A DNA stretch of 64,000 bases from Taxawa tesnikishii (nom. ined.) (Eukaryota > Ascomycota > Dothideomycetes > Dothideales). Below are positions 4-57,531 of the stretch, in pieces. Made by a program: the position numbers and the translations under genes. Location of the stretch: NCBI GenBank assembly GCA_030247885.1, contig JAPDRO010000010.1, positions 124,001 through 188,000 on the forward strand, in the 5' to 3' direction. The first letter of the stretch is position 1, and each line of letters begins with the position of its first letter. The notes beneath the pieces were generated by a model. It was not told the origin of the DNA. It saw only the letters and a list, made by a program, of their open reading frames with translations, and made no database searches.

Positions 4-1820
4 TCAAGGGATCATAGCCAGCCTTGTTGAACTTGAAGTGCATGTGGCTAGGCCGATAACGTAATTTCCGGGGAAGTTGATCAGCCGGGGTAGTTGATCA
101 CCGAAACGCGACCCTTCCAGCTTCGTTAATAATCTACGTATCGCAACAACGATGCAATCAGAATCTGAGTCGCTGGATCCGTTCTCAAGTAGTTCATCAT
201 TCTCGCCCTCGATCACTTCCTCGATTGGACGCTTACGTGGCCGTCTACGAGCCTTTTTATTTGCTGTTTCTGCTTCCGCTTCCTTTGCTATTTCAAGCAC
301 TTCCTGAGTGCTAAACACAAACCTTCCTTTTAATGCGACTCGCTTGCCCTTCGTTCGAGCCTTTCGTGTGTTAAGAAGCCTCTCCTGTTCAGCCAATTGT
401 TTGCGTGCTATAATGAGCTCGCTATTCGTTGTTTCGAAAGCGCGAGTCATCCGCTCCGTATACCGCTTCGCTGGAGATGGAAGGCTTTCGATGGCCTTTA
501 TCGTGGAATTAAGCAGCGCGTTTGCTTCGCGTAGTTCAGTGCCATCTGGCGGTGAGCTGTCAAGTAGCGATAAGTCCAGATCGGGTTGCGGTGGCGGTGT
601 ATGAGGTGGTGAAGCGCCTGGAGTCGCCCTAGAAGGCAGCTTTTCAAGCACGGAGATTGGGCTTAGCGGTACCAAGCCAGCACCGCGCCATCCGGCGAGG
701 ATGTTGTTAGTTGTAAGTGCCTTTGACCTCGCGTGGATATACATCTCAACCCATTCCACACGTGAGATGCGGCCTGAGTCGAGTCGAAGAGCGGCGTCGG
801 TTTCGGAAGCCAGCGCGCGCTTAAGCGGCGCAAACACGCCAACGTCAAGCGGCTGAAGGATATGCGAACAATGAGGTGGTAAGATCATCAAGTCAATTGC
901 GTTCCGCATGCAGAATACAATCACGTTTGCAGTAATATGGCTACTATGGCCGTCCATGATTAGCAATCTCTGGGTCGTAGGGTCCTCCGGCTTAGTCAAA
1001 GGCTCGAAAACAGTAGTAAGCCATTCATAACAGTGGCTATCGGAAGTCCAGCCGCTGTTACTAGTTGAGAACCTCCAGTCCTTAGGTGTTCGAGCAGGTA
1101 TCCACGCAGTGTTGGTATATTTGGCCTTGAAAATCAACAACGGTGGAACAGCTACGCCGGCAGCGCTTACGCACTCGACTGCAGTTATCCACTCTTGTCT
1201 ACTTCCGATCTGCTTCCAACTACTGTCCTCACGTATGTTGACTAATGCTCTCGACGATTGACTCGCTCCGACTGCGAAGCCGGACTCGTCCATGTTGTAG
1301 GCGTGCTCCGGAGCGTATTGGTTTTCTATCCACATCTCCGTCACCGCGTCGAACCACCTCTTTACGCCCTCGTAACTCGTCGCTTTGAACCGCGCAGTGT
1401 CAATCTGACGTGTCCAGATGCCGGCGATCTCAGGATGACGAGCATTGAAGCGTTCTAGCCAATGATTGCCAATTAGTCGAGGGGTTGATGTAGAAGCCTT
1501 GGAAAGCTGGACGCGACCGCGTCGTATCTCCTCAGCCATTTGTACAGCCAACGCAGGCGACGCAGGGTATCCAGTGCGTGTGAGACGTGTAATCCATCGT
1601 GCTAATGTCCTTTCTTCCGCGTTTGAGAGGATCTGCTCTGTTTCGTGCGCAGTAGCGCGCGAAGTTCGTCCAGACATGCGACTATGTAGCGTGGCGAAGG
1701 GGACGTTGAATGCGAGGGCAGCTTTGCGAATTGACGGGTACTCTTTGTTTTTACTGCAGATAGTGCCTTTTGAATATCAGCTTCCGTATAGGCTGGTTTG
1801 TTAGGCGTGGAAGTGCTCAT
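4..1820 (-). pseudogene. pogo-like transposase, family A, frameshifted and with lost stop
   Basis: CENP-B-type helix-turn-helix (start MSTSTPNKPAYTEADIQ at 1820) followed by a DDE_1 catalytic core: YNMDESGFAVG (first D), LLIMDGHSSH (second D) and ILQPLDVGVF (third D), then a basic and acidic C-terminus. One A is missing from an A-run near 1752, so the N-terminus and the rest lie in different frames. At the C-terminus the relative at 41156 stops with TAA after VAIRR. Here that codon is TTA, and the frame runs on through the left terminal repeat and 58 bp of the host gene to a stop at 4. Confidence 0.9.
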
Positions 1821-1906
1821 AGTGGGTGGTGGAAGTAGTAGAAGGTAGAAAGGTCACGTTTCGGTGATCAACTACCCCGGCTGATCAACTTCCCCGGAAA
1901 TTACGT
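59..1906 (-). mobile_element. pogo/Fot-like DNA transposon, family A, copy 1
   Basis: Full-length element with TA target duplications at 57-58 and 1907-1908. Terminal inverted repeats of about 53 bp start ACGTAATTTCCGGGG and hold two tandem units, GGGGAAGTTGATCA and GGGGTAGTTGATCA. The two ends are nearly identical, so the insertion looks fairly young. It encodes a DDE_1-type transposase on the minus strand that carries one frameshift and has lost its stop codon. Confidence 0.95.
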
Positions 1907-2379
1907 TACGGATGACGGTTCAACTTCTTGAGAAGCTTGCCAACTGGGCCGTCATGCGGGATGGGATATGGTACAGGAAGGATGGCTTTGAACCAAAAGT
2001 CCCCAGCATCGTCGCTCGTCAAGATTGCTCTGCCGTCCGGTCCTGGTCTGTCGGCATGTTGCACGTCATAGAATCCTTTCGAATCGGTCTCCCAGATATC
2101 GATTTCTGCCCCGCGTATAGGTCTTCCCTCGATGTCCTTGACAGTGCAGGTTACAAGCAGCAGCTGGCCGTCCGGATCTTGAGATATCGAAGCGCCATGA
2201 ACGCTGTGCTTAGCCTCGTGTGTATGGAAGGGTCCAAAAACGGTGCCTTCGGTGCTGTGTTGCGGCTTCGGATGGTCGATTGAATCGACTAATAGGGATA
2301 GACCCAGGACGTCCGACAGCAAAATGAATTCCTACATGGTATTCAGTCACGGCATTCTAATGGCTGGTAACTCCACGTA

Positions 2380-3539
2380 ACGAACTTCCCCACTTGATGC
2401 ACGTTCCCACTTGATGCACGCTTTTCCTCACCAAACTCTATCACCATTACTCCACCCTGCAATGAACAACAACGCTCGGATCGAGGCTGCACTGGTAGAT
2501 TTAGATTCGCAAGAGCGTGTGAACTATGCTGCAACCGCACAAAAGTGGAGAGTCGATCGGAGTACACTATCAAGGCGCCATCAAGGCCAAACAGGCACAA
2601 TCCAGGAAGCCGTCTCTTACACGCGCCGGAAGCTCACAGATGCGCAAGAAGAGGTGCTTACTGCGCATCTGAATAGACTTACGGACCGTGGCCTTCCACC
2701 GACACCGCAGATGCTTAAGAATATTGCTGAACAGATTGCAAAAACTGCGCTTGGAAAGAACTGGGTCACCCGCTTCTACCAGCGTCACCGCGATCGCCTT
2801 ACCAGCATGTACCTACGAGTGATCGATCACAAGCGCAAGGTAGCAGATAACTCGCACTACTTCCAAGACTTCTTTGACCTAGTCAGTTTTCTCCCACCTG
2901 CGTTATAGTAGCGTGCAGCCTGCTTCTAGTATGCGCGTCTAACGCTCTTAACCTAGCTTCACAAAAAGATGGAGCAGTACGACGTCACGCCATCAAACAC
3001 GTACAACTTTGACGAGAAAGGCTTCTTGATAGGCCTCTCTAGGTCTACAAAAAGGATTGTCTCATGTGAGCACGGTTCTTCAGTCCCGCTCGGGTTGAGC
3101 GAGCTCGCCGGCAAGCAGCTAACGAAGCGGAGGCGGAGTGCCAACGCAAGCAAGCTATACAAGATCGGAGGGTTGAAGCAGCTAGAGTACGGGTAGAGAA
3201 AGCGCGTGAGAAGGAAGAAAGGAAGGCTGCGCGTGTTATAGCGCGCGAGGCAGCAAAAGTAGAGCGGGATCGTAAAAAGGCTGAACGAGCGGCGAGGAAA
3301 GCAGCGCAACAAGCTAGCAAGCATGCGCAAACTACTAAGCAGCCTCGGGCTACTAGTACAGAGGAAGAAGAAGTGATAGTGGTAAGGGCAACGAAAGTAG
3401 ACGCTGCTGGGCCTAAGAAGAGGGGTCCTGAAGAGGAGGAGGTAGAGGTCCCCCAGAAGAGGCTTCACGCACAGCCTTCCACACAACGCACTCAGCAAGA
3501 CACAAGCGATTTGGGTGATGTTCTAGGTTCTTCAGCGTG
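2380..3539 (+). mobile_element. pogo-like element, family C, right end missing
   Basis: Left terminus with TA at 2378-2379, then ACGAACTTCCCC and two tandem units of about 17 bp (TTCCCCACTTGATGCACG, TTCCCACTTGATGCACG). The body matches the intact copy at 55177-57531 but lacks about 890 bp of catalytic core. It stops at about 3539, where it joins the 3' part of a family B element lying in the other orientation. No right terminal repeat remains. Confidence 0.88.
2462..3538 (+). pseudogene. Family C transposase remnant, catalytic core deleted
   Basis: ATG at 2462 gives the helix-turn-helix N-terminus (MNNNARIEAALVDLDSQERV) up to the DLVS region. A GTCAGT...CTTAACCTAG intron then leads to KMEQYDVTPSNTYNFDEKGF. 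After STKRIVS the sequence jumps across AGCAC (3069-3073) to the coiled-coil tail, removing the DGHSSH and LQPLD motifs kept in the copy at 55.3-57.4 kb. The tail is out of frame and truncated at 3538. It can encode no active transposase. Confidence 0.85.
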
Positions 3540-5295
3540 TCTTGCGCACCGGAACAATGATACAGTCAGAATCTGAGTCGCTATGTATGTTTTCAGGCAC
3601 TTCATCTTCCTCATCCTCTAGCACTTCTTCAATTGTACGCTTGCGTGGTCGTCCGCGTGGTTTTTAGTCGATGACTCCGCTTCGGCTGCCTTGGCTATCT
3701 CGAGCACGTCCTGCGTGCTAAACACGAACCTGCCCTTCAATGCGACCCGCTTTCCCTTCTTCCGGACCTTTCGCGCATTGAGAAGCTTCTCTTGTTCTTG
3801 TAACTGCTTGCGCAAAGTAACGTTCTCGCTATGCGTCACTTCAAAAGCGCGAGTCATCCGCTCCGCATATCGCTTCGCCGGAGATGGAGCCTCCTGGATC
3901 GCCTTGATTGCAGAGTTGAACAGTGCGTTTGCTTCGCGTAGCTCGGTGCCGTCTGGAGGAGAGCTATCGAGTAGCGAAAGGTCTAGATCGAGTTGTTGCG
4001 GAGGTGTATGAGGTTGCAAATCCGCTGCAGTCGATTCCGCAGGCAGCTTGTTAAGCACCGTTATAGGGCTTAGCGGCACTAGACCAGCAGCTCTCCATCC
4101 GCTTAGGATATTCCTCGTTGTAACAGCCTTAGCTCTCGCGCGTATGTACATCTCCGTCCACTCTACGCGCGATATGCGGCCAGAGTCGACTCGTAAAGCG
4201 GCGTCGGTCTCCGAAGCTAGCGCGCGCTTGAGCGGTGCAAACACGCCAACATCAAGCGGTTGGAGTATATGCGAACAGTGAGGCGGCAGGATGAGCAAGT
4301 CGATCGCATTCTCCATGCAGAAGGCGATCACTTTCGCTGTCATATGGCTGCTATGGCCGTCCATGATTAGCATTCTTCGTGTCGTAGGGTCGTCAGGCCG
4401 CGTCAAGGGCTCGAACACCGTGGTCAGCCATTGAAAACCATGACTATCGGACATCCAACCGCTGCTGCTAGTCGAGAACCTCCAGTCTGGAGGCGTATGT
4501 GAGGGTACCCAGGCGGTGTTGGTGTGTTTGGCCTTGAAGATGATCAAGGGAGGCACGGTAGCCCCAGCAGCACTCACACACTCGATTGCAGTTATCCACT
4601 CCTGACGGCCTGCAACTACCTTCCAGCTAGATGTCTCGCGTACATTGACTAGAGTTCTTGATGTTTGGCTCGCTCCGACAGCGAAGCCGGACTCGTCCAT
4701 GTTGTATACGCGCTCCGGAGGATAGTTATGTTCTACAAAAGCTCCGTCACCGCGTCAAACCACCTCTTTACGGCTTCATAGCTTGTCGCGTTGAAGCGTG
4801 CGCTATCTACCTGACGAGTCCAGATGCCAGCGATCTCAGGATGACGAGTCTTGAAGCGGTCGAGCCAATGCTCGCCTATTGGTCGAGGAGATGGTAGTGG
4901 TTTCTTCGACAGCTGCACGCGTGCGCGTCGGATTTCTTCGGCCATTTGCACAACCAACGCAGGCGAAGCAGGAAAGCCGGTACGTGTAAGACGTGTAACC
5001 CATCCGACTAATGTCTTCTCTTCCGCGTTCGAAAGGATTTGATCTGATTCATGCGCTATAGCGCGCGAAGTTCGTCCGGCCATGCGATGGTGTATAGTAG
5101 CAGGAGGGATATTGAATGCGCGGGCAGCGTCTCGAACTGATTTGTAGTCTTTGTTTTTGTAGGCAGAAATACACTTCTGGACATCAGCTTCGGTATAAAC
5201 TTGCTTATCTAGTGTAGAAGCACCCATTGTTGGTAGTAGCGTGGTTAGAAGTTGAAAAGACGAGTTTCCGTGTCTCGCTTCCCCGCGGTTTACGT
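3539..5295 (-). mobile_element. pogo-like element, family B, copy 1, 3' end missing
   Basis: The right terminus ends ...GGTTTACGT at 5295 and is followed by TA (5296-5297). It carries only one terminal unit (GGGGAAGCGAGACA on the minus strand), where copy 2 at 25142 has two. The left terminus, meaning the end beyond the transposase C-terminus, is lost at the junction with the family C copy near 3539. Otherwise it is nearly identical to copy 2. Confidence 0.88.
3540..5227 (-). pseudogene. Family B transposase, two frameshifts
   Basis: Start ATG at 5227 (MGASTLDKQVYTEADVQK), CENP-B-like HTH, then a DDE_1 core with YNMDESGFAVG, MLIMDGHSSH and ILQPLDVGVF. The first break is at GAGCTTTTGTAG (about 4733), where one T is missing. 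The second is in an A-run at about 3665, where one A is missing before the KPRGRPRK-type tail. Both breaks recur at the same places in the copy at 25227-26918. Confidence 0.9.
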
Positions 5296-5429
5296 TAATC
5301 GAAATCATGGAACGAAGCTGAGGTCTAGCCGCGCTTCGGCTAACCTACTACATACAGAAGGCACGTGATTATAGCGACTACCACATGTCCCAGGCTACGC
5401 CTGTGACACGTACACCCCTTCAACCCCAA

Positions 5430-11526: not shown

Positions 11527-11635
11527 TAACGTACCCCACGGGCGAGCCGGTCACTGTGCTAAGCCCTCACCAAGATCACAGCATCTTTGCGGTAACACTG
11601 CATCGTTTCGGATAATACAGTAAACTGTAGTATTA

Positions 11636-11802
11636 ACGTAGTTGCCGGGGTAGTTGATCAGCCTGGGTAGTTGATCAGTAGCCTTGATTAGGTTTAGTTT
11701 ATCCTGGAACGAGCTAGCCAATAAGCTCTATCACGCTTGAAACTGCCTATAACGGTTAACTGATCAACTACCCAGGCTGATCAACTACCCCGGCAACTAC
11801 GT
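11636..11802. mobile_element. pogo-type MITE 1, nested
   Basis: 167-bp non-coding element with TA at 11634-11635 and 11803-11804. Termini start ACGTAGTTGCCGGGG and hold two units (GGGGTAGTTGATCA, TGGGTAGTTGATCA), most like family A units. The core carries GAGCTAGC (11711-11718) and AACTGCCTAT (11741-11750), shared at the same 30-nt spacing with the MITEs at 23.3 and 33.9 kb. Confidence 0.92.
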
Positions 11803-11808
11803 TATGGC

Positions 11809-13439
11809 TCAGTCTGATGCTATCTCTGCTTCCTTATTACATGTTCGGGCGTTATGTCCTATCTCCCTGCACCACCCACAGCGCCTTTGAGGCCGGTTGC
11901 TCCCATCGATGCACGCCTTCTTCTGCTCCCTTTCTATATCACCACAAGCGCCAGACTCCTTTACAGCTGTTAAGCGTGTGCCTTCCTCAATCGTTAGCTT
12001 TCTGTCCTTCTGTAACCGCTTCCTTTTACGAGATTTACGTCGAGTGGCAGCTTCGTTAGCTGCTTGGAGCTCAGCGACCTGCTTGCGTAGAAGAACAGCC
12101 GAATGCATCATCACCTCAGCGCCCTTGGTAAGCCGATCAAGCGAGTCAACGATCGAGGTAGGTGAACTATCAACGTGCCTTTGAATCCTCTCTCGAATCA
12201 GCTTCGATTGAGACCCGAGTTCGATAGTATTGCTTGGTGTTCTTGACTCCTAGGGACTGTTGTTGATGGCAGGGGTGTTGGCGTGCGCGACCCTACTTCA
12301 AGCCTTGAAATGACAGCCTCTGGGTCTAATGGAACAAGGCCGGCGTCTCGGAAGCTTGCCTTGATGTTACTTTCGGTAATGGCCATGTCGAAAGCTGCTT
12401 TGAAGCACGGCAAGAACTCGATCTTCGTGATGTGGCTAATGTGGCCGCGCATCAGATCTTCAACTTGGCGCCCGTACGCCTTCTTCAGCGGTGGAAAACA
12501 GCCTACATCTAGCGGCTGCAGCAGGTGCGATGAGTGCGGAGGCATACAGAGAGTGATGATCTTCTTCTGCTCGCAGAGTTTCTGCAACTCTAGCGAGTCG
12601 TGGCTCTCGTGGCCGTCTAGAAGCAGCAGACGATAGGTGCCAACAGTGCGATCCTTTGTGTTTATCAAAGTGCTCTAGCCACTCGATGCCAACCTTGTTT
12701 GTTGTCCAGCCGTTGTCGGTGACTCTAATAGCCCAGGTAGGGGAATGTCATGCTCCTTGTACCAGGCAGAGAGGTGGTACTTGCCTGCGAAGATGACGAA
12801 TGGCGGGATCGCCCACCCCATCGCGTTGATGCCCTGGATCACTGTAGTCCATTCGCGGTTGCCTGGCTGAACCTGCTTTGGCCGGTTCCGCCTTTCAGAG
12901 CCTGTGACAACTGCTCCTGTAGAGATAACACCCATCATAAAGCCAGATTCGTCAAAGTTGTACGAGTCTTCGTCGGTGATACCGTACTTGGCCTTCGTGT
13001 TCTCTACAAGCCGAGACCACCCTCTGATAACGTCTGGATCCTCGCATTCAGCCCTTCTGTACTCGTGCTCCCGATTGAACTTGACTTTGAGCTCTGGCTG
13101 GCGCTTGACAAAAGTGCTAGCCCAGTTCACGCCCACCGGGTCTCGGTGACGCTCAGCAAGCAAAGAATCAGCCATAGCCTTTACAGCAGCAAGCCGAGGT
13201 AGAAACCCTCGGGCATCCAGGTTCAGTATATGCTGAACTATCACCGTTTCTTCTGTCTTCGTGGGTTTCATTGAATTGGGCCTGCAATCGCGTCGAGAGG
13301 TGGTTCCGGCAAGTCGGTCGCTGAGAGTGCTTTGGGATACACTGTAGAGCTCTGCAGCGCGTCGCTGGCTCAAAGTCGCGTCTTGCTTGATAGCCTGAAG
13401 AGCTGGCTGTATCTTGCTTTCAGTCGAAGGCGATTGCAT
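11809..13439 (-). pseudogene. Family E transposase with C-terminal zinc knuckle, at least three frameshifts
   Basis: Start ATG at 13439 (MQSPSTESKIQPALQAIKQ). The HTH, YNFDESGFMMGVIS, LLLLDGHESH and LLQPLDVGCF are all readable, so the DDE core is complete in content. Frames change near 12735, near 12668 and near 12210. The C-terminus ends with CGWCREIGHNARTC, a CX2CX4HX4C zinc knuckle, just before the stop at 11809-11811. Confidence 0.88.
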
Positions 13440-13678
13440 GTTGGTGTGTCGAGAAATAACAGATGTAGTGAGAGTTTGGTGAGGGCTTGGCACAGTGACC
13501 GGCTCGCCCGTGGGGTACGTTATCTAGTCGCGAATTCGATGATTTGAGAGCAATCACGTGACTACACATTGATCAATCGGGACGTTTGCCGTCATCTTAT
13601 CTGGTCGGATAGATAAGATCCGGAGACCTCTTAGTACTTCCGCAGACGTCTAAAGCCCGTACTAACTCACTTATCCAC

Positions 13679-15835: not shown

Positions 15836-15992
15836 CCTGTCGCTGACCGGCAAGTCAATATAATCAAACTTCCAGCCAGTTGTGGTAGGACTCAGCCTCA
15901 ATACTGTCGTCGGTGTAGAGTCGCCATCTGCTGTGATGAGTCGAGTTGCTGACAGGCCCAATGACATGAAGGGCGCAGCGAGAGTGGGGATA

Positions 15993-17453
15993 ACGTGATT
16001 CCCCACTTGATGACCGATCCCACATGATGACCGATTTTGCGCATTACCAACAACCAACTTTATCCTACTCCACAATGGACCACAACACTCGTATAGCTTG
16101 CGCAATAGATGATTTAGAGTCGCAAGAGCGTATAAACTATGCCGTGACTGCGCGAAAGTGGAACATCGACCGTAGAACACTAGCAAAGCGCTACAAAGGC
16201 GAAACAGGCACAGTCCAAGAAGCCATCTCTTACACGCGCCGGAAGCTCACAGACGCGCAAGAAGAGGTGCTTGTTGCGCATGCTAACAGACTTACGGATC
16301 GTGGCCTTCCACCGACACCGCAGATGCTTAAGAATATTGCTGAACAGATTGCAAAAACTGCGCTTGGAAAGAACTGGGTCACCCGCTTCTACCAGCGTCA
16401 CCGCGATCGCCTCACTAGCATCTACCTACGAACAATCGGTCACAAGCGCAAGGTAGCAGATAACTCGCACTACTTCCAAGACTTCTTTGACCTAGTCAGT
16501 TTTCTCCCACCTGCGTTATAGTAGCGTGCAGCCTGCTTCTAGTATGCGCGTCTAACGCTCTTAACCTAGCTTCACAAAAAGATGGAGCAGTACGACGTCA
16601 CGCCATCAAACACGTACAACTTTGACGAGAAAGGCTTCTTGATAGGCCTCTCTAGGTCTACAAAAAGGATTGTCTCATGTGAGCACGGTTCTTCAGTCCC
16701 GCTCGGGTTGAGCGAGCTCGGCAGCAAGCAGCCGACGAAGCGGAGGCGGAGCGCCAACGCAAGCAGGCCATACAAGATCGGAAGGTTGAAGCAGCTAGAG
16801 CACGAGCAGACAAAGCGCGTGAGAGGGAGGAAAGAAAGGCCGCGCGTGCTGCGGCGCGGGAGGCAGCCAAAGCAGAGCGAGAACGTGAAAAGGCCGAACG
16901 AGCGGCAAAGAAAGTAGCGCAACAAGCGAGTAAGCTTGCGCAAACTACTAAGCAGCCTCGGGCTGCTACCATAGAAGAAGGAGAAGTGATAGTGGTAAGG
17001 GCAGCGAAAGTAGACGCTACTAAGCCTAGGAAGAGGGGTCTCGAAGAGGAAGGGGTAGGGGTGCCCCGGAAGAGGCTTCACGCGCAGCCTTCCACACAGC
17101 GCACCCAGCGAGAAGCAAGCGATTCAGGTGCCATTCTAGGTTCTACGGAGTCTAAGCTTCAGCGTGCTGTTACTTCTAGAGGGAGGGTTTCTAGTCCTAC
17201 TTTGCGCCAGCGAAAGGCAGGTTGGGTACCGGTTTCGCGGAGGTTACGCTCCGGGCGTAGCACACAGCCGCCCTCACGATATTTTTAAGTTAGTTAGTAG
17301 CCAGAATAGCTCTGTTACTACTCTTCTTAAAGTACATAAAACATCAGGTTAATGCATCTAGTGGTTGAATTATTAGAGCTGTGCTTTCATGTTTAGCTAG
17401 GATGTGCAAAATCGGTCATCATGTGGGATCGGTCATCAAGTGGGGAATCACGT
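15993..17453 (+). mobile_element. pogo-like element, family C', internal deletion derivative
   Basis: TA at 15991-15992 and 17454-17455. Termini start ACGTGATTCCCC and carry two units of about 17 bp (TCCCCACTTGATGACCGA, TCCCACATGATGACCGA). These differ from the family C units (...GATGCACG), although the middle of the element is almost identical to family C. Length 1461 bp. It shares the AGCAC deletion junction (16682-16686) with the copy at 2380. Confidence 0.93.
16075..17287 (+). pseudogene. Family C' transposase, catalytic core deleted
   Basis: Start ATG at 16075 (MDHNTRIACAIDDLESQERI). The first 50 or so residues clearly differ from family C, while from YTRRKLTDAQEEVL onward the two are nearly identical at DNA level. 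The intron (GTCAGT...TTAACCTAG) is the same. The core deletion removes the second and third catalytic Asp. The lysine-rich coiled-coil tail continues to about 17287 with frame changes. Confidence 0.88.
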
Positions 17454-17732
17454 TACCCATGAAGCCACAAATAGCTGATAACTAAGCAACGTCTGGAAAC
17501 ACGTGACGTAGAGCTACCATCCGCAACAAAGGAAAGAATACGAAGAAAGGGTAATTGACCTGTCTGGTTAGTATGAGCGCCTCCTCCGCGGAGGCGATTC
17601 TTCGCGTCGTGGTCTTCCTAAGGGGGCCGAGCACTCGCTGGAGGCTGCTGGTTGGTCCTGCTGTTTCTTCTTGAGTTGGTATGCCGATGGTGCTGCGTAT
17701 ACTGAATGAGATTTGTTAAGGGCCTCACAGCT

Positions 17733-25120: not shown

Positions 25121-25141
25121 TTAGTTCGAAGTTTAGTACTA

Positions 25142-26986: not shown

Positions 26987-27046
26987 TAATAAAACTTTCT
27001 CGGGATTAGATTCCCGATAGCTTTTATATAGGGGAGATATATAGTA

Positions 27047-33806: not shown

Positions 33807-33945
33807 GGTAAGGTGAATAGATGGAACGCTGATACCGTGTAAAGTGGTAACGGATGATGCCTAATAACGACGGAATTCTGTTATTGTGGATTCTAAAAAC
33901 TGTTGTACTTATTATACTGGTATGCTATCTAGACAAAGACCAATA

Positions 33946-34111: not shown

Positions 34112-34113
34112 TA

Positions 34114-37746: not shown

Positions 37747-39593
37747 ACGTGTTTCACAAGTAAGTCGGCCACCCAAGTGAGTCGGCCACCTCACGAAACT
37801 AGAACACCTGCGCAGCGATATTGCGCAACACTACAACACTTTACAGCAGTCTATAGAACAGTATACAATTATTCAGAAACGTCGCTATCTTCTGCATCCT
37901 CTATTTCTACTTTACAGGTGCGGGAGTTATGCCCAGTCTCGCCGCAACGGCCGCAACGCCGCTCTACGCGCACCCTCTTCGCAGGTTTCTCGCCGTCATT
38001 ACCACTGCTACCCTCCTTGGCAGCGACCAGATCAGCTACCTCACCCACTGTTAGAGTCTCCTCTGTCCGTACGTATTGCCTTTTGCGGCTCTTGCGCTTT
38101 GTGGCCGCCTCAATTGCGTCTCGCAGACGCGCTGTTTCTTCGCGCATTAACACCATCTCATGCGCTATCTGCTGAGCGCCCTTGGTCAGCTGCCTAACCT
38201 GCTCATCCAAAGAGCTTGCTGGAGACCCCTGATGTTTTTGCATGCGATTTCGAATTAGCGTTGACTGCGCCTCTATTTCACTGGCGTTGCGCGGTGTTTT
38301 CGCCTCCCATTCGACTGTACCTAGTGCAGGCGGCGTTGGCGTACGCAGCCTTACATCCAGCTTCGATAACATAGCCTCTAGGTTGTATGGGACTAGCCCA
38401 GCGCCTCGAAACCTTGCGCAGACATTCTCCTATGTGAACGCCTTCTTAAAAGCTGCTTTGAAGGCAGTCAGGAAGGTTTCTTTCGTGATATAGTAAACGC
38501 GACTGCGTGCCAAGGCTGAGATCTCGTCGCCATACAGGCGCTTTAGCAGCGAGTAGCAGACGACGTCAAGTGGCTGCAGTAGGTGCGAGGAGTGTGGAGG
38601 CATACAGAGAGCTATAATGTTGTTCTCCTTACAGTAATCCTGGAATTCGACCGAGCAGTGGCTCTCGTGGCCGTCAATAATAAGCAGCCTATATGCCCCA
38701 ACAGTATAAGCCTTCGTATGCGCATCGAAGTGCTTAAGCCACGCGAGCGCGAGCTTGTTGTTAGTCCAGCCAGTAGAGGAGACCTCAACAATCCAGTCAC
38801 GAGGTAGATCGTTAAACCAGGTTGAGATAAGGACCTTGCCTGCGAAGATGATGAAGGGTGGGATAACGCGCCCCGTAGCCCCGACGCCTTGTACCAAGGT
38901 AACCCACTCGCGATCGCCAGGCTGTAGTTTCTTCTGTTTACCAGGTTTCTCTGAGCCTGTAACAACTAGCTGAGACGATATCTTGCCCATTAGAAAGCCA
39001 GATTCATCAAAGTTGTAGGTGTCCTCATCTGAGATACTATACTTCGCCTTCATTGACTGAACAAGCGCGAACCAGGGCTGGATAACCGCCGGATCCTCGC
39101 AGGCAGCTCGCTGGCGGTCGTACGGACGGCTCCATCGCGTTCGTAGCTCAGGCGTACGCTTAATCAAGTTGTCAACCCAGTTCTTGCCAACAGGCTTCCC
39201 ATCACGCTCTCCTAGCAGTTTATCCGCCATATCTCGTACGTTTCCCTTCGAGGGCGGTACGCCACGTAGACTCTCGTCTAGCACACGCTGTACAACCACC
39301 TCCTCTTCTAGTTTTGTAAGGCGCTTTGATTTCGGCTCGTGGTCGCGTCGAGAGCGCCGTCCAGCGCGTCGGTCTTGTAGCGTTGATCGGGGCACAGTAT
39401 ATACTGCTGCAGCGCGTCTCTCGCTTTGAATTTGCTTGGTTGTAATATCAGAGATAGCAAGGTATATATCTCCTTCAGTGTAGGTGTATTGCACGTTGCG
39501 TTGTTGAGGCATTGCGCAATGTTGCTGCGCAGGTGTTCTAGTTTCGCGAGGTGGCCGACTCACTTGGGTGGCCGACTTACTTGTGAAACACGT
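37747..39593 (-). mobile_element. pogo-like element, family D, full length
   Basis: TA at 37745-37746 and 39594-39595; 1847 bp. The termini start ACGTGTTTCACAAG and carry two CAAGTRAGTCGGCCAC units. The inverted match extends about 80 bp with few mismatches, longer than in the other families. Confidence 0.95.
37869..39512 (-). pseudogene. Family D transposase, single in-frame stop
   Basis: ATG at 39512 (MPQQRNVQYTYTEGDIYLAI); a longer frame starting with GTG inside the terminal repeat is not used. HTH, YNFDESGFLMGKIS, LLIIDGHESH and LLQPLDVVCY are all in one frame. One TAG (38430-38432) sits in KAFT*ENVCARFRGAG, where Glu is expected. The frame then continues to a zinc knuckle (CGRCGETGHNSRTC) and stop at 37869, 547 residues plus the stop site. 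Apart from that one codon the protein reads as complete. Confidence 0.9.
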
Positions 39594-39595
39594 TA

Positions 39596-40980: not shown

Positions 40981-41101
40981 CCAGTAAGAGGAAAGTGTAC
41001 TCGGGGTCAAAGTGGAAGACAACGAGGATTGGACCTGTTCAGTAGAAGGCATAACAACATTTCTGAATTTTGGGTCGCCATCCACCTTTCACTTTCTCCT
41101 A

Positions 41102-42383
41102 ACGTAATTTCCGGCAAAGTTGATCACCGAAACGCGACCCTTCCAGCTTCGTTAATTATCTACGTATCGCAACAACGATGTTGTTAGTTGTGAGTGCCTT
41201 TGCCCTCGCGCGGATATACGTCTCAACCCATTCTACGCGTGAGATGCGGCCTGAGTCGAGTCGAAGAGCGGCGTCGGTTTCGGAAGCTAGCGCACGCTTA
41301 AGTGGCGCAAACACGCCAACGTCAAGCGGTTGAAGTATATGCGAACAATGAGGTGGCAGGATCATCAAGTCAATCTCATTCTGCATACAGAACGCAGTTA
41401 CCTTGCCAGTAATGTGGCTGCTGTGGCCGTCCATGATCAGTAGTCTTCGTGTCGTAGGGTCCTCCGGCCGTGTCAAAGGCTCGAAAACAGTGGTAAGCCA
41501 TTCGTAACTGTGGCTATCGGACGTCCAGCCGCTGTTACTAGTTGAGAACCTCCAGTCCTTGGGTGTTCGAGCAGGTATCCACGCAGTGTTCGTGTATTTG
41601 GCCTTGCAAATTAACAACGGTGGAACAGCTACGCCGGAAGCGCTTACGCACTCGATTGCAGTTATCCACTCTTGTCTGCTTCCAATCACCTTCCAACTAC
41701 TGTCCTCACGTATGTTGACCAATGCTCTTGATGACTGACTCGCTCCGACCGCGAAGCCGGACTCGTCCATGTTGTAAACGTGCTCCGGAGCATATTGGTT
41801 CTGTATCCACATCTCCGTTACTGCGTCAAGCCACCTCTTCACGCCCTCGTAACTCGTCGCCTTGAACCGCGCAGCGTCGATCTGACGTGTCCAGATGCCT
41901 GCGATCTCAGGATGACGGGTTTTGAAGCGTTCTAGCCAATGGTTGCCAATTGGTCGAAGGGTTGATGTAGAAGCCTTCGAAAGCTGGACGCGACCGTGTC
42001 GTATCTCCTCAGCCATTTGTACAGCCAACGCAGGCGACGCAGGGTATCCAGTGCATGTGAGACGTGTAATCCATCGTGCTAATGTCCTTTCTTCCGCATT
42101 TGAGAGGATCTGCTCTGTTTCGTGCGCAGTAGCGCGCGAAGTTCGTCCAGACATGCGACTTTGTAGCGTTGCGAAGGGGCGTTGGATGCGAGTGCGGCTT
42201 TGCGAATTGACGGGTATTCTTTATTTTTCACTGCAGATAGTGCCTTTTGAATATCAGCTTCCGTACAGGCTAGTTTGTTAGGTGTGGAAGTGTTCATGGT
42301 GGGTGGTGGAAGTAGTAGAAGGTAGAAAGGTCGCGTTTTGGTGATCAACTACCCCGGCTGATCAACTTCCCCGAGAATTACGT
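41102..42383 (-). mobile_element. pogo-like element, family A, copy 2, deletion derivative
   Basis: Left end ACGTAATTTCCGG after TA (41100-41101) has one terminal unit; the right end has two. Right flank is TT rather than TA, perhaps a later change. Compared with copy 1, 549 bp are missing inside, with the junction at GATG (41177-41180). The loss of one 16-bp unit accounts for nearly all the remaining length difference. Confidence 0.92.
41156..42297 (-). pseudogene. Family A transposase, C-terminal half deleted and N-terminus frameshifted
   Basis: ATG at 42297 (MNTSTPNKLACTEADIQKAL). A one-base loss near 42178 shifts the frame in ALASN; the main frame then runs from MSGRTSRATAHETE through YNMDESGFAVG, LLIMDGHSSH and ILQPLDVGVF to TTNNI, where the deletion joins it to VVAIRR and the family's normal TAA stop (41156-41158). 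The catalytic Asp residues are present; the C-terminal tail is gone. Confidence 0.9.
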
Positions 42384-50855: not shown

Positions 50856-51821
50856 TGCGTCAAAAGATCCCTATCTGGAAGTCCGTTCGGCTGATTAACA
50901 GACAAATTGTAGCCTTGGAGGTTTGGAGGTGTGTTCCGTAGGGTTTCTGCTTATAGCGGTCCGATGAGATTCAATACAAAGTAAGGACTCTGCATGACAA
51001 TTCGTCATATGCAATGCATTGTGCTTGATAGCGAGGAGGATACCGCGGCAGGGACACTTCGATATTCGCCTGTCCGAGGTTTTATAGCACCCCAAGATCA
51101 CATTGCCAATATTCCGCGTCTCAACTGTCTAAGTACACGGCTAGAACTGCATTAACGTAGCCTCTGAGAGAGAACGCTAGAGACAACGGAACGTCCGGAC
51201 TCTGTGTATCCACCGCACAGCAAAGCTTGAAGGATCAAAGGTTCTGTCGAGCAAAAACCCACCGGACCGGGTCACCTTCATCGCTACAGACCCTGCCGTG
51301 AGAGGCGCTCAGTCCCATGTCCTATCGCGTGTCGAAGCCAGATGGAAAAGTGGGAATGTAGAAAAGCGTAAAGGGATTGCTCGGAAAGCAGTCAGTCCCA
51401 GAAACGGAACACCAAGCTGTGGCCGCCAAGCAACAAACCCGGACGTGAAACTCTGCGTTGCCGCTGCTCCGCCTCGACGATCTGACACGCCTCGCCGCAT
51501 CAAACGTGGTTCATCCTACAGTACGATGTGGCCATACTGCGTCTGGTGCACCTCGATGCTAGAGGTCGCAATTACGGCTAGACAGACGGCGCAAGTTATC
51601 GGGGGCTAGGCAGAAGGGGCATGATTCAATGTCTGGTGTCGGATGTCACTGATCATGCCAAGCCAGAACACCAGCAGTAGTGACTGCCAAGGCGGACGCG
51701 GATGCAAGAACTGCGGCGTACGTTTCTTCTCCTCTTGTTCCCAGGCAATATCTCTCCTCTCTTCTCCGTTACCTTTCTCGCTTAGCGTTGACATCCTCAT
51801 CTAACATAAACCGCGGGGTAG
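50856..51821. other. No gene recognised
   Basis: Upstream region of the transporter. An ORF at 51298-51609 has no domain and no coding signal that I can see. Confidence 0.4.
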
Positions 51822-51889
51822 TGAATCAGGTGGGGTAGTGGATCAGTAAAGCGCGACCTTTCTCCCTTTTGACATCGCTATCACCTACT

Positions 51890-52062
51890 ATGAGTGCTTC
51901 CATACCTAATAAACTAGTCTATACTGAAGCTGATATGCAAGATGCTATATCTGCCCTAGAAAAAAGGAATACAAGTCAGTTCGCAAGGCTGCCAGCGCGT
52001 TTAACGTCCCAAACACAACTCTTCGCAATCGCATGGCTGGACGAACTTCGCGCTCTATAGCG
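51890..52062 (+). pseudogene. Transposase N-terminal fragment, left half of the hybrid
   Basis: ATG at 51890 (MSASIPNKLVYTEADMQDAI) matches the family A/B N-terminus. After SALEK the frame shifts. The sequence ends at the equivalent of MAGRTSRSIA. Confidence 0.8.
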
Positions 52063-52718
52063 CTTACACACTCGACTGCAGTTATCCACTCTTGCCGGCC
52101 TCCGATCTGCTTCCAGCTAGATGCCCCGCGGATTTTAACAGGAGCTCTCGACGACTGGCTCGCTCCAACCGCGAAGCCAGACTCGTCCATGTTATAGACG
52201 CGCTCCGGAGGATACTGGTGCTGTAGGAACAGCTCCGTCACCGCGTCAAACCACCTCTTTACGGCGTCATGACTTGTCGGGTTGAAGCGCGCGCTCTCGA
52301 TCTGACGAGTCCAGATGCCTGCGATCTCAGGATGGCGAGTCTTGAAGCGGTCAAGCCACTTCTCACCAATTGGTCGAGGTGATGATCGTGAAGTCTTTGA
52401 CAGCTGAACGCGACCGCGTCGGATCTCTTCGGCCATTTGCACTACTAACGCAGGCGAGGCAGGGAAACCGGTGCGTGTAAGACGCGTGATCCATCGACCA
52501 ATGTGCTTTCTTCGGCGTTCGAGAGAATCTGCTCCATTTCATGCGCTCTCGCGCGCGAATTATGTCCGGCCATACGATCGCGTAGAGTTTGGTAAGGCAC
52601 ACTATATGCGCGAGCAGCTTGTCGAATCGAGGCGCAGTCCTTTTTCCGTAAGGCAGAAAGTGCACTCTGGATATCAGGTTCAGTATAAGCCGGCTTGCTA
52701 GGCATAGGAGTACTCATG
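52059..52718 (-). pseudogene. Transposase N-terminal half, right half of the hybrid
   Basis: ATG at 52718 (MSTPMPSKPAYTEPDIQSAL). HTH and MAGHNSRARAHEMEQILSNA; a frameshift near 52500; then MAEEIRRGRVQLSKTSRSS, RVYNMDESGFAVGASQSSR and WITAVECVS, ending at the junction. Only the first catalytic Asp is present. Confidence 0.85.
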
Positions 52719-52804
52719 ATTGACGGTAGCAATACACAAAGATGAGAAAGTCTCGTTTAGGTGGCGGCTTCCCCGCGGTTTACGTTATCAATCAATCAAT
52801 CGTA

Positions 52805-54655
52805 ACGTGCTTCACAAGCGAGCCGGTCACCCAAGCGAGCCGGTCAAAACGCGTACGCGACGCGTTCTTTAGCTTCTACCTCTTATTCTATAACAAACTT
52901 TGGTTATAATGCCTTCTCAAACTGAAGGAAGAGTTTCTTTAGCCCTTCAGGCCTACAGGAGTCGCAACATCTTGTCCCTTCGCGCTGCAGCGAACACCTA
53001 CGACGTACCATTCGAGACACTCCGCGAAAGACACCTTGGTATCCTTCCAAGAGCAGATATACCTGCAAACTCTCGCAAACTTACCAACGCTGAAGAGGAA
53101 CTCCTTCTGCAGAGGATCCTCCAGCAGTCTGCCCAAGGATTTCCTCCTTAGCGTAGTATTGTTCAAGAAATGGTTAATACTATGCTTAGAACCAAGAATC
53201 CATCCAGTCCTCAAAGAGTTGGCAAGAACTGGGTCACCAACTTTGTCAAGAGGCATCCACAGCTTAGCAGCATCTATAATCGCAAGTTCGACTATCAAAG
53301 AGCAGAATGTGAGGATCCAAAGCTTGTTAGCTTATGGTTTAAGCTAGTGGGAGACACAATTGCGCAGTATGGTGTTGCAGATGAAGATATCTACAACTTT
53401 GATGAGACTGGCTTCCAGATGGGTGTTATTGCAACATCCAAAGTGATCACAACTTCAGAAAGGAAGGGAAGACCAAGGACAAACCAGCCAGGAAACAGGG
53501 AATGGGTTACAGCAATCGAGGCAGTCAATGCAAAGGGTTGGGCTGTTCCACCATTCATCATCTTTGCTACTAAGCTTCACCAGATGACCTGGTATCAAGC
53601 TGGCCTTCCAGCAACCTGGAAGATTGCTGTTATTGACAACGGCTGGACCACAGATAGAGATTGGGACCCAATGGATCCATCATTTCCATGAAAACACCAA
53701 GCATTCCTATAGCAAATGAAGGCTCCTCATCTTTGATGGCCATGGAAGCCACCACACAGCTGAATTCAAGGACTTCTGCTTGAAGAACCACATCCTCACT
53801 TTGTGTATGCCTGCACATACATCTCACATCCTTCAGCCTTTGGATGTGAGCTGTTTTGGCCCTCTAAAGAAGGCATATGGTACTCATTGAGAACAAGCTG
53901 AGGCTTGGCATCAACCATATCACTAAGGAAGGGTTCCTACCAGCCTTCTTTGCAGCACACCAGCAAAGTATGACTGTGGACACAATCAGATCTAGCTTCA
54001 GAGCAACTGGCCTTGTCCCTTTCAATCCTGATGAGGTACTTTCCAATCTTGGACCAGTTCCACAAGCAACACCATCACCAAGGGGCAGCCAGTCCTCTTG
54101 GGACCCTAAAACTCCAAAGACCATACCCGAAATTAAGAAGCAAGCCAACCTGATCTTGACTAAGGGTCGCAAAAGAAGAAGATCATCAACTTCTTCAGGT
54201 GACAAACCTTTCCAACAGCTTCTGAAAGGGTTCGAGACTGTGGTCCATGATAAGGCACTTTTGATGGCTGAAGTAGCTGCACTTAGAGCTGAGAATCAGC
54301 ACCAGAAGCAGAAGCGAGTACGCCGCAAAGGTTTCATTCAACAGGGAGGGTCAATGACTATCCAAGAAGGGCAGGAGGCTGTTCAGAAGAGAGTGGTTGC
54401 TGAGCAATCAACTCCTCAAGATGAAAATATCGATCCAGCATTTCTGCCTGCGCAGCCAGAAGTGCCTCGTAAGAAGGCAACATCAAGGTGTAGCAAGTGT
54501 GGCTCTTATGAGCATAACTATAGAACATGTAGATCATAATCCAAGTAGTTTCATGTTCTGTTCTACAGTGTTGCTCATGCAATGTGCAACTAAAGTTGAA
54601 TAAGACGGAAACTTGACCGGCTCGCTTGGGTGACCGGCTCGCTTGTGAAGCACGT
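52805..54655 (+). mobile_element. pogo-like element, family E2, full length
   Basis: TA at 52803-52804 and 54656-54657; 1851 bp. Termini start ACGTGCTTCACAAGCG with two CAAGCGAGCCGGTCAC units, the same unit as family E but a different outer tip. Starts 17 bp after the TA flanking the hybrid element. Confidence 0.94.
52909..54539 (+). pseudogene. Family E2 transposase with zinc knuckle, several breaks
   Basis: ATG at 52909 (MPSQTEGRVSLALQAYRSRN). A TAG at 53149-53151 interrupts after QGFPP; the frame continues to YNFDETGFQMGVIA and NREWVTAIEAVNAKGW, then shifts near 53660. The rest reads LLIFDGHGSHH-like (about 53730), ILQPLDVSCF (about 53830), another shift near 53880, and finally a tail with CSKCGSYEHNYRTC, a CX2CX4HX4C knuckle, and stop at 54539. 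Confidence 0.88.
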
Positions 54656-54744
54656 TATAGATAGCCCATAATGTCTGAAGCTACCATTGCGAAAGGATCA
54701 CACTATCTACCTTGTGCGAGCATGAATTCTGTATGGCTATTGTA

Positions 54745-55176
54745 CAGTGACTCCATGAAAGTATCCGTGATTTAGCCGTGAACGTCGATCTGTTTGCAAC
54801 TATACCATCAACTTGACGCGTAACCATGCCACAACCGAGGCAGCCGCTTGCTCAGATTGATGTAAATCACCTTGATAATCGAGAACTGAGTCCATATACA
54901 CGTGGACGGCTCGTCGCAGCGCACGAACATGGCGATACAGTTGCTGAAATCAGCCACGCAACAAAGATACCGTGGTCTACTGTAAAAGACACAGTTACGA
55001 AGGCGGCCACACATCCACATGGATATTCGCATGCAAGATCCGGCCGTCCAAAGAAGCAATCAGACCGTATGAATCGCCGTATCGTCCGATATGCTTGCAC
55101 CAAACCGTTTGCGACGTATAACCAGCTCCAATCCGAGTTGCAGCTCAATATATGTACTGCAACTATCGCACGAATA
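54745..55176 (+). mobile_element. Tc1/mariner element, 5' part only
   Basis: TA at 54743-54744 then CAGTGACTCC, the tip of a Tc1-type repeat related to the one at 42397. The transposase starts at 54826 (MPQPRQPLAQIDVNHLDNRE; LSPYTRGRLVAAHEHGD; RPKKQSDRMNRRIVRYACTK) and is open up to TIARI, where the family C element is inserted at 55177. The sequence on the far side of that element (57534 on) does not continue the protein, so the rest was lost. Confidence 0.8.
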
Positions 55177-57531
55177 ACGAACTTCCCCACTTGATGCACG
55201 TTCCCACTTGATGCACGCTTTTTGCGTCTCAGCGATACATGAAAGAACAGCTCTAGTAATTTAACCACTGGGTGCATCGACCTAGGATCTCATACAGCTC
55301 AAGAAGAACAGCAACAGAACTATTCTAGCTACTAACTAATTGGAAAGTATCGTGAAGGCGGCTGTGTGCTGCGCCCGGAGCGTAACCTCTGCGAAACCGG
55401 TACCCAGCCTGTATCTCGCTGGCGTAAAGCATGACTAGATATCCTCCCTCTTGGAATAGTCTCGCGCTGAAGTTGACACGCTGAAGAACCTAGAACACCA
55501 CCCAAATCGCTTTTATCTTGCTGAGTGCGTTGTGTAGAAGGCTGTGCGTGAAGCCTCTTCTGGGGTACCTCTACCTCCTCCTCTTCAAGACCCCTCTTCC
55601 TAGGCTTAGCAGCGTCTACTCTCGCTGCCCTTACTACTATCACTTCTTGTTCCTTGGTGCTAGTAGCCCGAGGCTGCTTAGTAGTTTGCGCATGCTTGCC
55701 AGCTTGTTGCGCTGCTTTCCTCGCCGCTCGTTCAGCCTTTCTACGATCCAGCTCTACTTTTGCTGCCTCGCGCGCTACAACACGCGCAGCCTTCCTTTCT
55801 TCCTTCTCACGCGCTTTCCCTACCCGTACTCTAGCTGCTTCAACCCTCCGATCTTGTATAGCCTGCTTGCGTTGGCGCTCCACCTCCGCTTCGTTGGCTG
55901 CTTGCTGCCGAGCTCGCTCAACCCGAGCGGGACTGAAGAACCGTGCTTGACCCGCACTCTCGCCCTCTTCATACAAGACAAGCCTCCGTCCACGCTTCTG
56001 CTTCTTCTTCTCCTCTACTATCACCTTCTTTAAGCCTTGGTTCTCGTGCTGTAGGATCTCTACCTTGGTAGCTAGCTTTTCACCAGCATGGAGTAGAGGG
56101 AGCGCTTCGATAGTAACATAGCCATCCTTTTGCATATGGCTAAACATACGGCGTAGCGAGCGCGCTGAAGTAGGCGTTCGAACGTGCTGTGGCTCAGGCG
56201 TAGTGTTGTTCTGCGTGACTGTGGCTATCACACGTTCGGGGCTGAACGGGTGAATCCCAGCCGCCTCCCATGCGCTTTTCACATTCTTCTCCGTGAATGC
56301 GCATTCCCACGCCTCGTGGAAGAACTTCCAGAACTGTCGCTTAGTGATACGAGTGAGACCTCCACCATCACTTAGGAACTGGTCGACTTCTCGCGAGTAG
56401 TAGGTTGCAAGAGGCGAAAACATGCCGATGTCAAGAGGTTGCAGCCTGTGAGTTGAGTGTGGAGGGAGAACGGCAAGTAGAATCCGGTTACGATCGGCGT
56501 AGTCAACAAAACCAAGGTTTACATGACTACTGTGGCCGTCTACGATAAGCAGGCGTTGACTTCTAGCCGCTTTTCGGCGTGTGTTGTGGTCAAACACGTG
56601 CTCCAGCCACTGCAACCCCAAAACCTCATTACTCCACCCCTTCTCCGAGCTAGCGAAGTATGCCGACTGCTTTTCACCGTCAAAGTCCTCCAACCAAGAG
56701 TCTTGTAAGTCTCCCGACTCGCTTTGGTAGATAAGCGCGGGTGGAAGGTGCGTTCCATCGGCGCAGATGGAAGCAATGAGTGTAATGAAGTCCCGGCTAC
56801 CATCCTGACTTGCACCGAGCAAGCACCCACTTTCTAGTGCTTCACGTGAGACGATCCGTTTCGTAGACCTAGAGAGGCCTATCAAGAAGCCTTTCTCGTC
56901 GAAGTTGTACGTGTTTGACGGCGTGACGTCGTACTGCTCCGTCTTTCTGTGAAGCTGTGTTGAAAGTGTTAGACACGCATACTAGAAGCAGGCTGCACGC
57001 TACTATAACGCAGGTGGGACAAAACTAACTAGGCTAAAGAACTCTTGGAAGTATAGCGAGTTATCTGCCACCTTGCGCTTGTGATCGATCACCCGTAGGT
57101 ACACGCTGGTAAGGCGATCGCGGTGTCGCTGGTAGAAGCGCGTGACCCAGTTCTTTCCAAGCTTAGTTTTCGTGATCTCCTCAGCGACGTTCTTAAGCAT
57201 CTGGGGTGTCGGTGGAAGGCCACGGTCCGTGAGTCTATTCAGATGCGCAATAAGCACCTCTTCTTGCGCATCTGTGAGCTTCCGGCGCGTGTAGGAGACG
57301 GCTTCCTGGATTGTGCCTGTTTGGCCTTGATGGCGCCTTGATAGTGTACTCCGATCGACTCTCCACTTCTTTGCGGTTGCAGCATAGTTCACACGCTCTT
57401 GCGAATCTAGATCTACCAGTGCAGCCTCGATCCGAGCGTTGTTGTTCATTGTAGGGTGCAGTAATGGTGATAGGGTTTGGAGAAGAAAATCGTGCATCAA
57501 GTGGGAACGTGCATCAAGTGGGGAAGTTCGT
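55177..57531 (-). mobile_element. pogo-like element, family C, apparently intact
   Basis: TA at 55175-55176 and 57532-57533; 2355 bp. Termini ACGAACTTCCCC with two units of about 17 bp (TTCCCCACTTGATGCACG, TTCCCACTTGATGCACG), identical at both ends as far as read. The only pogo copy here whose transposase reads through without a break. Confidence 0.94.
55332..57449 (-). CDS. Family C pogo-like transposase, 680 aa, one intron
   Basis: ATG at 57449 (MNNNARIEAALVDLDSQERV); an upstream TTG frame inside the terminal repeat is not used. Exon 1 57449-57030 (420 nt) and exon 2 56954-55332 (1623 nt) join in phase 0 across a 75-bp intron (GTTAGT ... TCTAAC ... AACACAG). HTH at residues 1-70; CENP-B-like second HTH to about 130 (LGKNWVTRFYQRHRDRL); YNFDEKGFLIGLSRS (first D), LLIVDGHSSHVNL (second D), HRLQPLDIGMF (third D). 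Residues from about 440 are a long Lys/Arg/Glu/Ala coiled coil with nuclear-localisation-like clusters, then a Ser/Arg tail. Nuclear, cut-and-paste at TA. No disabling change seen. Confidence 0.88.

Follow-up and report, generated by a model that had tools for sequence, protein, structure and literature searches.

Given the number of pogo-like DNA transposons in a 64,000-nucleotide stretch of contig C2 of the fungus Taxawa tesnikishii (hereafter the window), we asked how the transposases of the many families present are matched to the ends of their own elements. The window holds 11 whole or partial pogo copies and three miniature inverted-repeat transposable elements (MITEs), besides fragments. 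A preliminary description had reported a tandem unit inside each terminus, and had proposed that this unit is the site of the N-terminal helix-turn-helix (HTH) pair of the transposase and has diversified by family like a set of private keys. We find that the ends carry two tandem boxes with a period of 17 bp and that, across families, the recognition helix of the first HTH (HTH1) covaries with the right half of the box. These observations make it probable that the boxes are the sites of each element's own transposase, with a half-box code set by that helix.

Two tandem boxes inside each end

The copies are pogo/Fot1-like in both parts of the protein. Matches to the DDE_1 domain above the cut-off were obtained for A1, B1, B2, copy C2, D and A2, with the E2 fragment just below it, and the DDE part of E was found in the genome search with one stop (contig C2:136351-136857); a DD35D catalytic signature was counted by eye in the A1 translation. 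The N-terminal combination of HTH_psq and HTH_Tnp_Tc5 was detected as well. HTH_Tnp_Tc5 scored above the cut-off in A1, B2, both C copies, C', A2, the mixed-key deleted copy (hybrid) and E2, below it in D, and was unlisted for E; HTH_psq scored above in E and D, below in A1 and B2, and was unlisted for the C, C', A2, hybrid and E2 fragments.

A scan of the window for TA, a tip and two boxes 17 bp apart with at least 11 of 14 positions equal gave 20 matches: 19 are ends and the other (11750) lies within MITE 1. No match was obtained in 20 first-order simulated sequences scanned in the same way. The scan is blind to ends with a single or degenerate box, namely those of E and A2 and the right ends of B1 and the hybrid. 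The shared terminal layout reported in the preliminary description is thus real, and all nine unit sequences named there are present in the window. Tips begin with ACGT or ACGA, as had been stated for nearly all copies, in 18 of the 19 scanned ends, and with ACAT in one (51802). Insertion at TA was confirmed on both sides for all nine copies listed (seven elements and two MITEs), which have the terminal inverted repeats (TIRs) and TA duplication of this class, and did not hold for A2, where the right TA is not intact.

Counted from the first base after the TA, the boxes occupy positions ~12-28 and ~29-45. When the ends are compared with themselves, 13 of 16 end families match best at a lag of 17 bp and two, which lie outside the window (T and M), at 18 bp; the second box of E is degenerate. 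Tandem repetition had therefore been recognized correctly, with a range (14-18 bp) that was too wide, and the two 17 bp direct repeats per end are those of the Trem/Aft1/Tan1 type. The unit listed for the right end of the hybrid exists, but as a single, partly deleted box instead of a tandem unit, and MITE 2 departs from the layout at both of its ends (Table 1). The two-box layout is also found in other families of contig C2 with very different tips (CCGTGTCC, CAGGGGTC and GAAGTCTT). A C-type element elsewhere on the contig, L067 (C2:831581-832741), carries three tandem 17 bp boxes at its 5´ end.

In the A/B superfamily, the ends follow a constant frame, ACGTAAACCGCGGGG-key-CAGGTGGGG-key-CA, whose variable part is an eight-base key (for example, AAGCGAGA in B2, TAATGGAT in L040, AAGCGAGC in L038, AAGCCGAC in L008 and TAGTGAAC in L029, the L numbers being our handles for individual copies). 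The left half of the box is the more conserved, with the form GGGG-W-A-R-Y. A pattern search of the genome gave 132 ends with this frame and none with the reversed pattern; among the 100 of these ends that were listed, 77 lie on contig C2 and 20 first-box keys occur.

Covariation of the HTH1 helix with the right half of the box

After alignment of the N-terminal domains, we kept one copy for each helix type, giving 15 A/B types. The HTH1 helix follows the pattern [VI]P-x1-x2-T-L-x3-x4-R-M and is variable, with a mean distance of 0.40 compared with 0.17 for HTH2 and 0.14 for the linker. Distances among the nine helix residues were correlated with distances among box bases 20-24, the right half of the box (Mantel r = 0.467). 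The helix ranked first among 127 nine-residue protein windows (family-wise P = 0.0002), the best window outside residues 18-42 reached only r = 0.17, and leaving out one type at a time gave r values of 0.40-0.51. No correlation was seen between the helix and the left half of the box (r = 0.03), or between the right half and either the rest of HTH1 (r = 0.10, not significant), though this region is itself variable, or HTH2 (r = 0.02, not significant). The preliminary description had tied the unit to the HTH pair as a whole; a correlation across copies is found, and in the A/B superfamily it is confined to the HTH1 helix and the right half of the box.

Since a stretch of ~250 bp takes in both the 5´ box and the HTH1 coding region, the two might be co-inherited by linked descent without any functional match. 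While this closeness of boxes and helix favors such an account, we consider it unlikely to be the whole explanation. In the A/B types, the DNA windows between the boxes and the helix showed no correlation with the key (r of -0.02 to 0.10), and HTH1 before the helix was uncorrelated as well; DNA windows over the helix codons gave r = 0.16 (P = 0.07) and r = 0.23 (P = 0.02). That uncorrelated sequence sits between two correlated parts is the strongest argument against mere linkage.

We also assembled a wider set of 35 types. G29, which is interrupted, was left out, and A2, the hybrid, P25, P104 and P128 were not used as types. For E, the protein came from copy P225 and the first box of the window copy stood for both boxes; the single box of L050 was used twice, L067 contributed the first two of its three boxes, and M combined the L002 protein with the L003 end. 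Box 2 of L031 and the second boxes of T and M were shifted by one base for register, a stop at x3 of L046 was treated as missing, and L054 and L056 have the same helix. With control for the rest of the domain, the helix was correlated with the right half (r = 0.33, P = 0.0002) and not with the left (r = -0.04), and HTH2 was correlated with the left half (r = 0.16, P = 0.008) and not significantly with the right (r = 0.016). Among the 20 non-A/B types, the helix again tracked the right half (r = 0.44, P = 0.0008); outside the A/B superfamily, the helix signal is thus present after control for the rest of the domain, but is less exclusive. Since partial Mantel tests can overstate significance among related sequences, and since the helix alone correlates among the parts tested in the A/B group, the case rests mainly on that group.

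Individual comparisons are in line with the overall correlation. Of the nine helix residues, a single one (x4, N to D) distinguishes L029 from L008, and base 20 changes from G to C among other key changes. An acidic x4 is accompanied by C20 in six of six types (three A/B types, D, E and E2) as against two of the 29 others, though the types are not independent. D, E and E2 are only 27-30% alike to the A/B type L035 outside the helix, so the recurrence of this pairing argues against linked descent. C and G64, 35% alike outside the helix, have all nine helix residues and the right half GCACG in common, whereas C and C', 84% alike outside the helix and 56% within it, have different right halves.

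Predictions of base 20 from x4, fixed beforehand, were read on 32 later stretches. A kind of x4 for which there was a prediction occurred in 16, two of which (L069 and L070) lack recognizable boxes. Base 20 was as predicted in both boxes in nine of the remaining 14 (L055, L059, L061, L064, L071, L072, L073, L074 and L076), in one box in L077 and L078, and in neither in L075 and L079, which show A20, perhaps through repeat-induced point mutation (RIP), or L080, which shows C20. The base was the same in both boxes in 12 of the 14. Another 15 stretches have R or K at x4, for which no prediction had been made, and none of these shows C20; no helix was obtained from L066. The test is weak, since every agreeing helix was of an already-seen type, which is also a point for linked descent.

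In an AlphaFold2 model (12-sequence alignment, mean pLDDT 74, pTM 0.46), the variable residues fall in the third helix of HTH1. The first-ranked Foldseek match to the model was CENP-B, which places two HTHs on a 17 bp box, in complex with that box (1hlv), although the match is weak (E = 0.25, TM 0.32-0.34); the HTH of LCoR was also listed (40 columns, 0.9 Å, E = 1.5). A profile search of PDB sequences did not list CENP-B, its sole match being a histone at E = 0.015, which is not a relative.

Simpler correspondences were tried and rejected. None of 1335 residue-base pairs passed a max-statistic correction (best P = 0.21), which counts against a single-site form of the code. The top-ranked pair, HTH2 residue 87 with base 16, was not significant and is contradicted by L044 (A, with T16 in box 2) and P25 (E, with T16). 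A Y at x1 goes with C23 in all seven Y types and in none of the eight others in the A/B superfamily, but the rule fails outside it, since K has Y with T23 and several R types have C23.

Matched ends, mixed keys and mosaic copies

The 100 listed A/B ends were paired where they face each other at 150-180, 1830-1870 or 2100-2260 bp, and the rest were left unpaired. Both ends had the same first-box key in 14 of the 19 full-length pairs, compared with a mean of 2.5 after shuffling (0 of 20,000 shuffles as high), and in 11 of 12 MITE pairs (shuffled mean 6.1, P = 0.0007). The five mismatched full-length pairs differ by one base in two cases and by six in three, L004 and L006 being two of the three. 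Agreement at the far end of the element is a further observation that linked descent does not account for.

Elements with two different keys look like recombinants. The first ~1.2 kb of L004 is ~100% identical to L005 and the remainder resembles L037; X226 passes from L040-like to L035-like sequence, and two keys are also present in L033, L042 and the hybrid of the window. L006 combines the left flank of L004 with the right flank of L005 and must therefore have arisen by exchange between copies and not by fresh insertion; since one flank is common to L004 and L006, these were counted as one event. The flank swap among L004, L005 and L006 is itself an exchange between transposon copies at ~682, 788 and 821 kb of contig C2. 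In all six mixed-key copies (five constructs), the helix matches the gene-side, 5´ key, as contiguity and hence linked descent predict. None of the five constructs was found at two independent sites among the copies examined, with no genome search made for further copies of each; the far ends of L055, L059, L064 and L071, whose 5´ end is as in L033, stood outside this comparison. The pattern suggests that mixed-key recombinants may be immobile.

These mosaics bring up the possibility that new key-helix pairs arise by swaps of a 5´ block between old families and not by stepwise co-adaptation. This proposal concerns the origin of the pairs and is compatible with a code. L004, X226, L006 and also L056 are mosaics of the kind it calls for, and HTH2 and the linker do not follow the key in the A/B superfamily. 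However, exchange shuffles existing pairs and does not create 15 helices on similar neighboring sequence, and L029 and L008 appear to be separated by a substitution within the helix. As the main source of new pairs, block exchange therefore seems to us possible but rather doubtful.

MITEs bear on a third alternative, in which the boxes are promoter elements, or sites for a host protein such as a domesticated pogo protein, and their covariation with the transposase is indirect. The boxes do lie directly upstream of the gene start, and the available portion of PMC7325037 describes domesticated pogo proteins, CENP-B among them, in hosts. Four MITEs without genes (18438, 60409, 135634 and 217410) nevertheless retain two boxes at each end. 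The CENP-B box motif, TTCGNNNNANNCGGG, has no match in the window, where 0.33 would be expected by chance, and covariation with each element's own helix is not predicted by a host-protein site. We regard this alternative as very improbable. By inspection, five of the six first-box keys of MITEs (TAGTTGGT, AAGCGAGC, TAGTTGAT, AAGCCGAC and AAGCCGGC) also occur in the 5´ box of some transposase copy; the sixth, AAGTTGGT, has no such match.

Several observations weigh against a half-box code. Among the 35 types, the rest of HTH1 was more strongly associated with the left half (partial r = 0.27) than was HTH2, and weakly with the right half (r = 0.16). In the 20 non-A/B types, a partial correlation with the right half was present for HTH2 too (r = 0.24, P = 0.004); raw correlations of windows distant from the helix equalled or exceeded its own, the highest being at residue 126 (r = 0.65, compared with 0.59 for the window starting at residue 27); and nearest-neighbor prediction of the right half was slightly better from the rest of HTH1 (0.77) than from the helix (0.72). 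Single types disagree as well: x4 is N with C20 in L046 and L080, which are one type, and in K; E and E2 have one key with helices that are 44% alike; the sequence VDRSTLSRKH occurs in both G203 and L054, yet base 22 is not the same in their right halves; and L056 joins an L065-like end to an L054-like protein, with a breakpoint near base 100. At the 3´ end, the key was correlated with the helix (r = 0.36, P = 0.006; 11 types chosen for matching ends), but the internal flank was correlated as strongly (r = 0.39, P = 0.016). Since the flank tracks the helix too, this control is not clean and does not part linkage from function, a point in favor of linked descent. Finally, the ratio of nonsynonymous to synonymous polymorphism (pN/pS) at the four helix sites is 0.61 among 14 types, not above 1 and thus giving no sign of positive selection; it is 0.15 at other helix codons and 0.18 in HTH2, with synonymous differences near saturation.

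On balance, we favor a half-box code, in which each end presents two tandem 17 bp binding boxes, just inside the tip beside the TA, to its own pogo/Fot1-type transposase. The C-terminal HTH (HTH_Tnp_Tc5) would contact the left, more conserved half of the box, and the recognition helix of the N-terminal HTH (HTH_psq) would contact bases 20-24 of the right half, mainly through x1, x3 and x4. Most likely, two transposase molecules, one per box, would bring the ends together for cut-and-paste at TA. As families radiate, the helix would change jointly with the right half of the boxes at both ends, and recombination within an element would produce copies with two different keys, which would not move if matched ends are needed. 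The comparison to private keys captures part of this, in that the units do diversify with the helix by family. The keys are not strictly private, because one first-box key is found in both E and E2, whose helices differ; in addition, C and G64 have a right half in common, two keys occur in some elements and the end of L056 is that of another family.

Divergence of keys could plausibly be an escape from cross-mobilization: because five of six MITE keys occur in the 5´ boxes of transposase copies, families sharing a key could lose transposase to MITEs. We tentatively extend this idea to a scenario in which one pogo lineage has given rise to 15-20 DNA-binding specificities through four helix residues and 4-5 matching bases, sharing a site with relatives or MITEs costs transposase, new recombinants with mismatched ends continue to form without being able to move, and the covariation would suffice for decoding the specificity of HTH_psq, including that of CENP-B relatives. 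Transposases and ends must co-adapt, and the covariation singles out particular residues and bases. The specificity of the psq/CENP-B class of DNA-binding domains becomes directly testable with small proteins and short oligonucleotides, and the pattern suggests how transposon families could gain independence from each other, and from MITEs using their transposase, within one genome.

Elements of the window, their setting and known systems

The elements of the window are listed in Table 1. The two E2 copies, which lie at different sites and keep identical ends, share an in-frame stop at a common position of the HTH region (53149-53151 in the window and L001:1153-1155). Among its other contents, the window contains a non-LTR-like (LTR, long terminal repeat) element at 17736-22810 with a reverse transcriptase and RNase H, and a zinc knuckle below the cut-off.

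Table 1. Positions of pogo-like copies, MITEs and helix codons in the window (ORF, open reading frame).
Feature	Position	Strand	Description
pogo copy A1, TA to TA	57..1908	-	boxes AAGTTGAT/TAGTTGAT both ends
A1 transposase ORF	7-1776		DDE_1, HTH_Tnp_Tc5, weak HTH_psq
A1 HTH1 recognition-helix codons	1675..1704	-	VPFATLHSRM
Partial C copy	2378..3541	+	left end with two ACTTGATGCACG boxes; HTH ORF 2381-2905; then B-type DNA
Partial B copy (B1)	3541..5297	-	98% to B2; right end single box, one unit missing
pogo copy E	11527..13522	-	one good box GAGCCGGT, second degenerate; HTH_psq ORF 12678-13523
MITE 1, nested in E	11634..11804	.	TAGTTGAT x2 both ends, equal to box 2 of family A
C' copy, internally deleted, 1,465 bp	15991..17455	+	TGATGACCG x2 both ends; HTH_Tnp_Tc5 ORF 15994-16518
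MITE 2	23336..23495	.	left key AAGCCGGC, second box degenerate; right boxes 23472-23495, right tip lost
pogo copy B2	25140..26988	+	AAGCGAGA x2 both ends; ORFs 25143-25718 (HTH), 25700-26926 (DDE_1)
B2 HTH1 recognition-helix codons	25344..25373	+	IPPTTIHHRM
MITE 3	33944..34113	.	AAGCCGAC x2 both ends; key common to transposase copy L008
pogo copy D	37745..39595	-	AAGTCGGC/GAGTCGGC both ends; ORF 38433-39602: HTH_psq, weak HTH_Tnp_Tc5, DDE_1
D HTH1 recognition-helix codons	39366..39395	-	VPRSTLQDRR
A2, internally deleted A-type copy	41100..42383	-	one box left, two right; right TA not intact
Mixed-key deleted copy (hybrid)	51802..52787	-	gene-side (right) end AAGCCGCC, helix VPYQTLRDRM; far end TAGTGAAT/TAGTGGAT
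pogo copy E2	52803..54657	+	GAGCCGGT x2 both ends; in-frame stop inside HTH region
pogo copy C2	55175..57533	-	TGATGCACG x2 both ends; ORFs 57006-57530 (HTH_Tnp_Tc5), 55335-56981 (DDE_1)

Contig C2, of which the window is part, measures 1.16 Mb in a genome of 29.4 Mb and 34 contigs. It makes up 4% of the genome, yet 123 of the 150 candidates scored, out of 195 found in a Pfam DDE_1 search, lie on it. A/B-domain copies on contig C2 are mostly open, and most others among the matches listed carry several TAG or TAA stops; many stop-bearing A/B copies off the contig lie close to contig ends, and the pattern is as RIP would leave. Contig C2 may be a RIP-free accessory chromosome.

Two groups of copies stand out among the 150 scored. 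Twelve copies have an identical DDE_1 score and a stop-free match, 11 of them outside contig C2 (on C1, C4, C6, C9, C10, C14, C16, C23, C24 (two) and C32); the other, C2:228587, corresponds to the D copy at C2:227904-229754, and we read the set as a recently spread family. Seventeen copies at 81.2 bits (C2:57524-59372 and 16 more places) have one common TGA inside the DDE_1 match, for which an intron, a frame switch or a defective element amplified in trans are candidate readings. Other TA-flanked elements of ~1.35 kb lie at C2:22200-23556, 67646-68998 and 92418-93769, with tips CAGTGACTCC, TGGTACCTCG and CTGTACCTCG, and tandem boxes are not evident in the ends shown.

Among known systems, CENP-B differs from the elements described here in that the site here is a transposon end. 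Work by Wang in 1999 is said to have established that the Drosophila pogo transposase recognizes, through its N-terminal HTH, a 12 bp site within the TIR; that is one element with one site, whereas many sites within one layout are present here. The nearest parallels are the Trem elements of Paracoccidioides, together with Aft1 and Tan1, whose TIRs consist of two 17 bp direct repeats according to the available portion of PMC2836289. The same portion passes on the suggestion that the repeats are the HTH/CENPB site, and remarks that differences in the DNA-binding domain may be connected to the TIRs. These elements are alike in having HTH_psq, CENPB and a DDE transposase, a TA target and, for several, a length near 1.85 kb (PMC2836289). 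They differ in comprising eight families over three isolates, as against ~35 types in one genome here, and a helix-level comparison was not met in that portion of the paper (PMC2836289).

The pogo-type Tc1-Mariner families of Sclerotinia sclerotiorum are likewise similar, with HTH_psq, HTH_Tnp_Tc5, DDE, TA and, in all but one, ACGT starts; box structure and key covariation are not described in the sections of PMC4188875 at hand. Fusarium poae also has many Fot/pogo families, intact on a supernumerary chromosome and RIP-mutated on the core, and the corresponding sections of PMC4994206 do not analyze end-transposase matching. In Bari/Tc1 elements, which belong to another family, the putative transposase sites are direct repeats, two or three of them at each end, as set out in the accessible part of PMC4120734. 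Covariation between helix and half-box was not found in searches of the open-licence literature, which leaves out most subscription journals. To our knowledge, no other case has been laid out in which a single genome holds this many specificities on a backbone that is nearly constant. The elements are known in kind, and what appears to be new is the quantified two-part matching, together with its mosaics.

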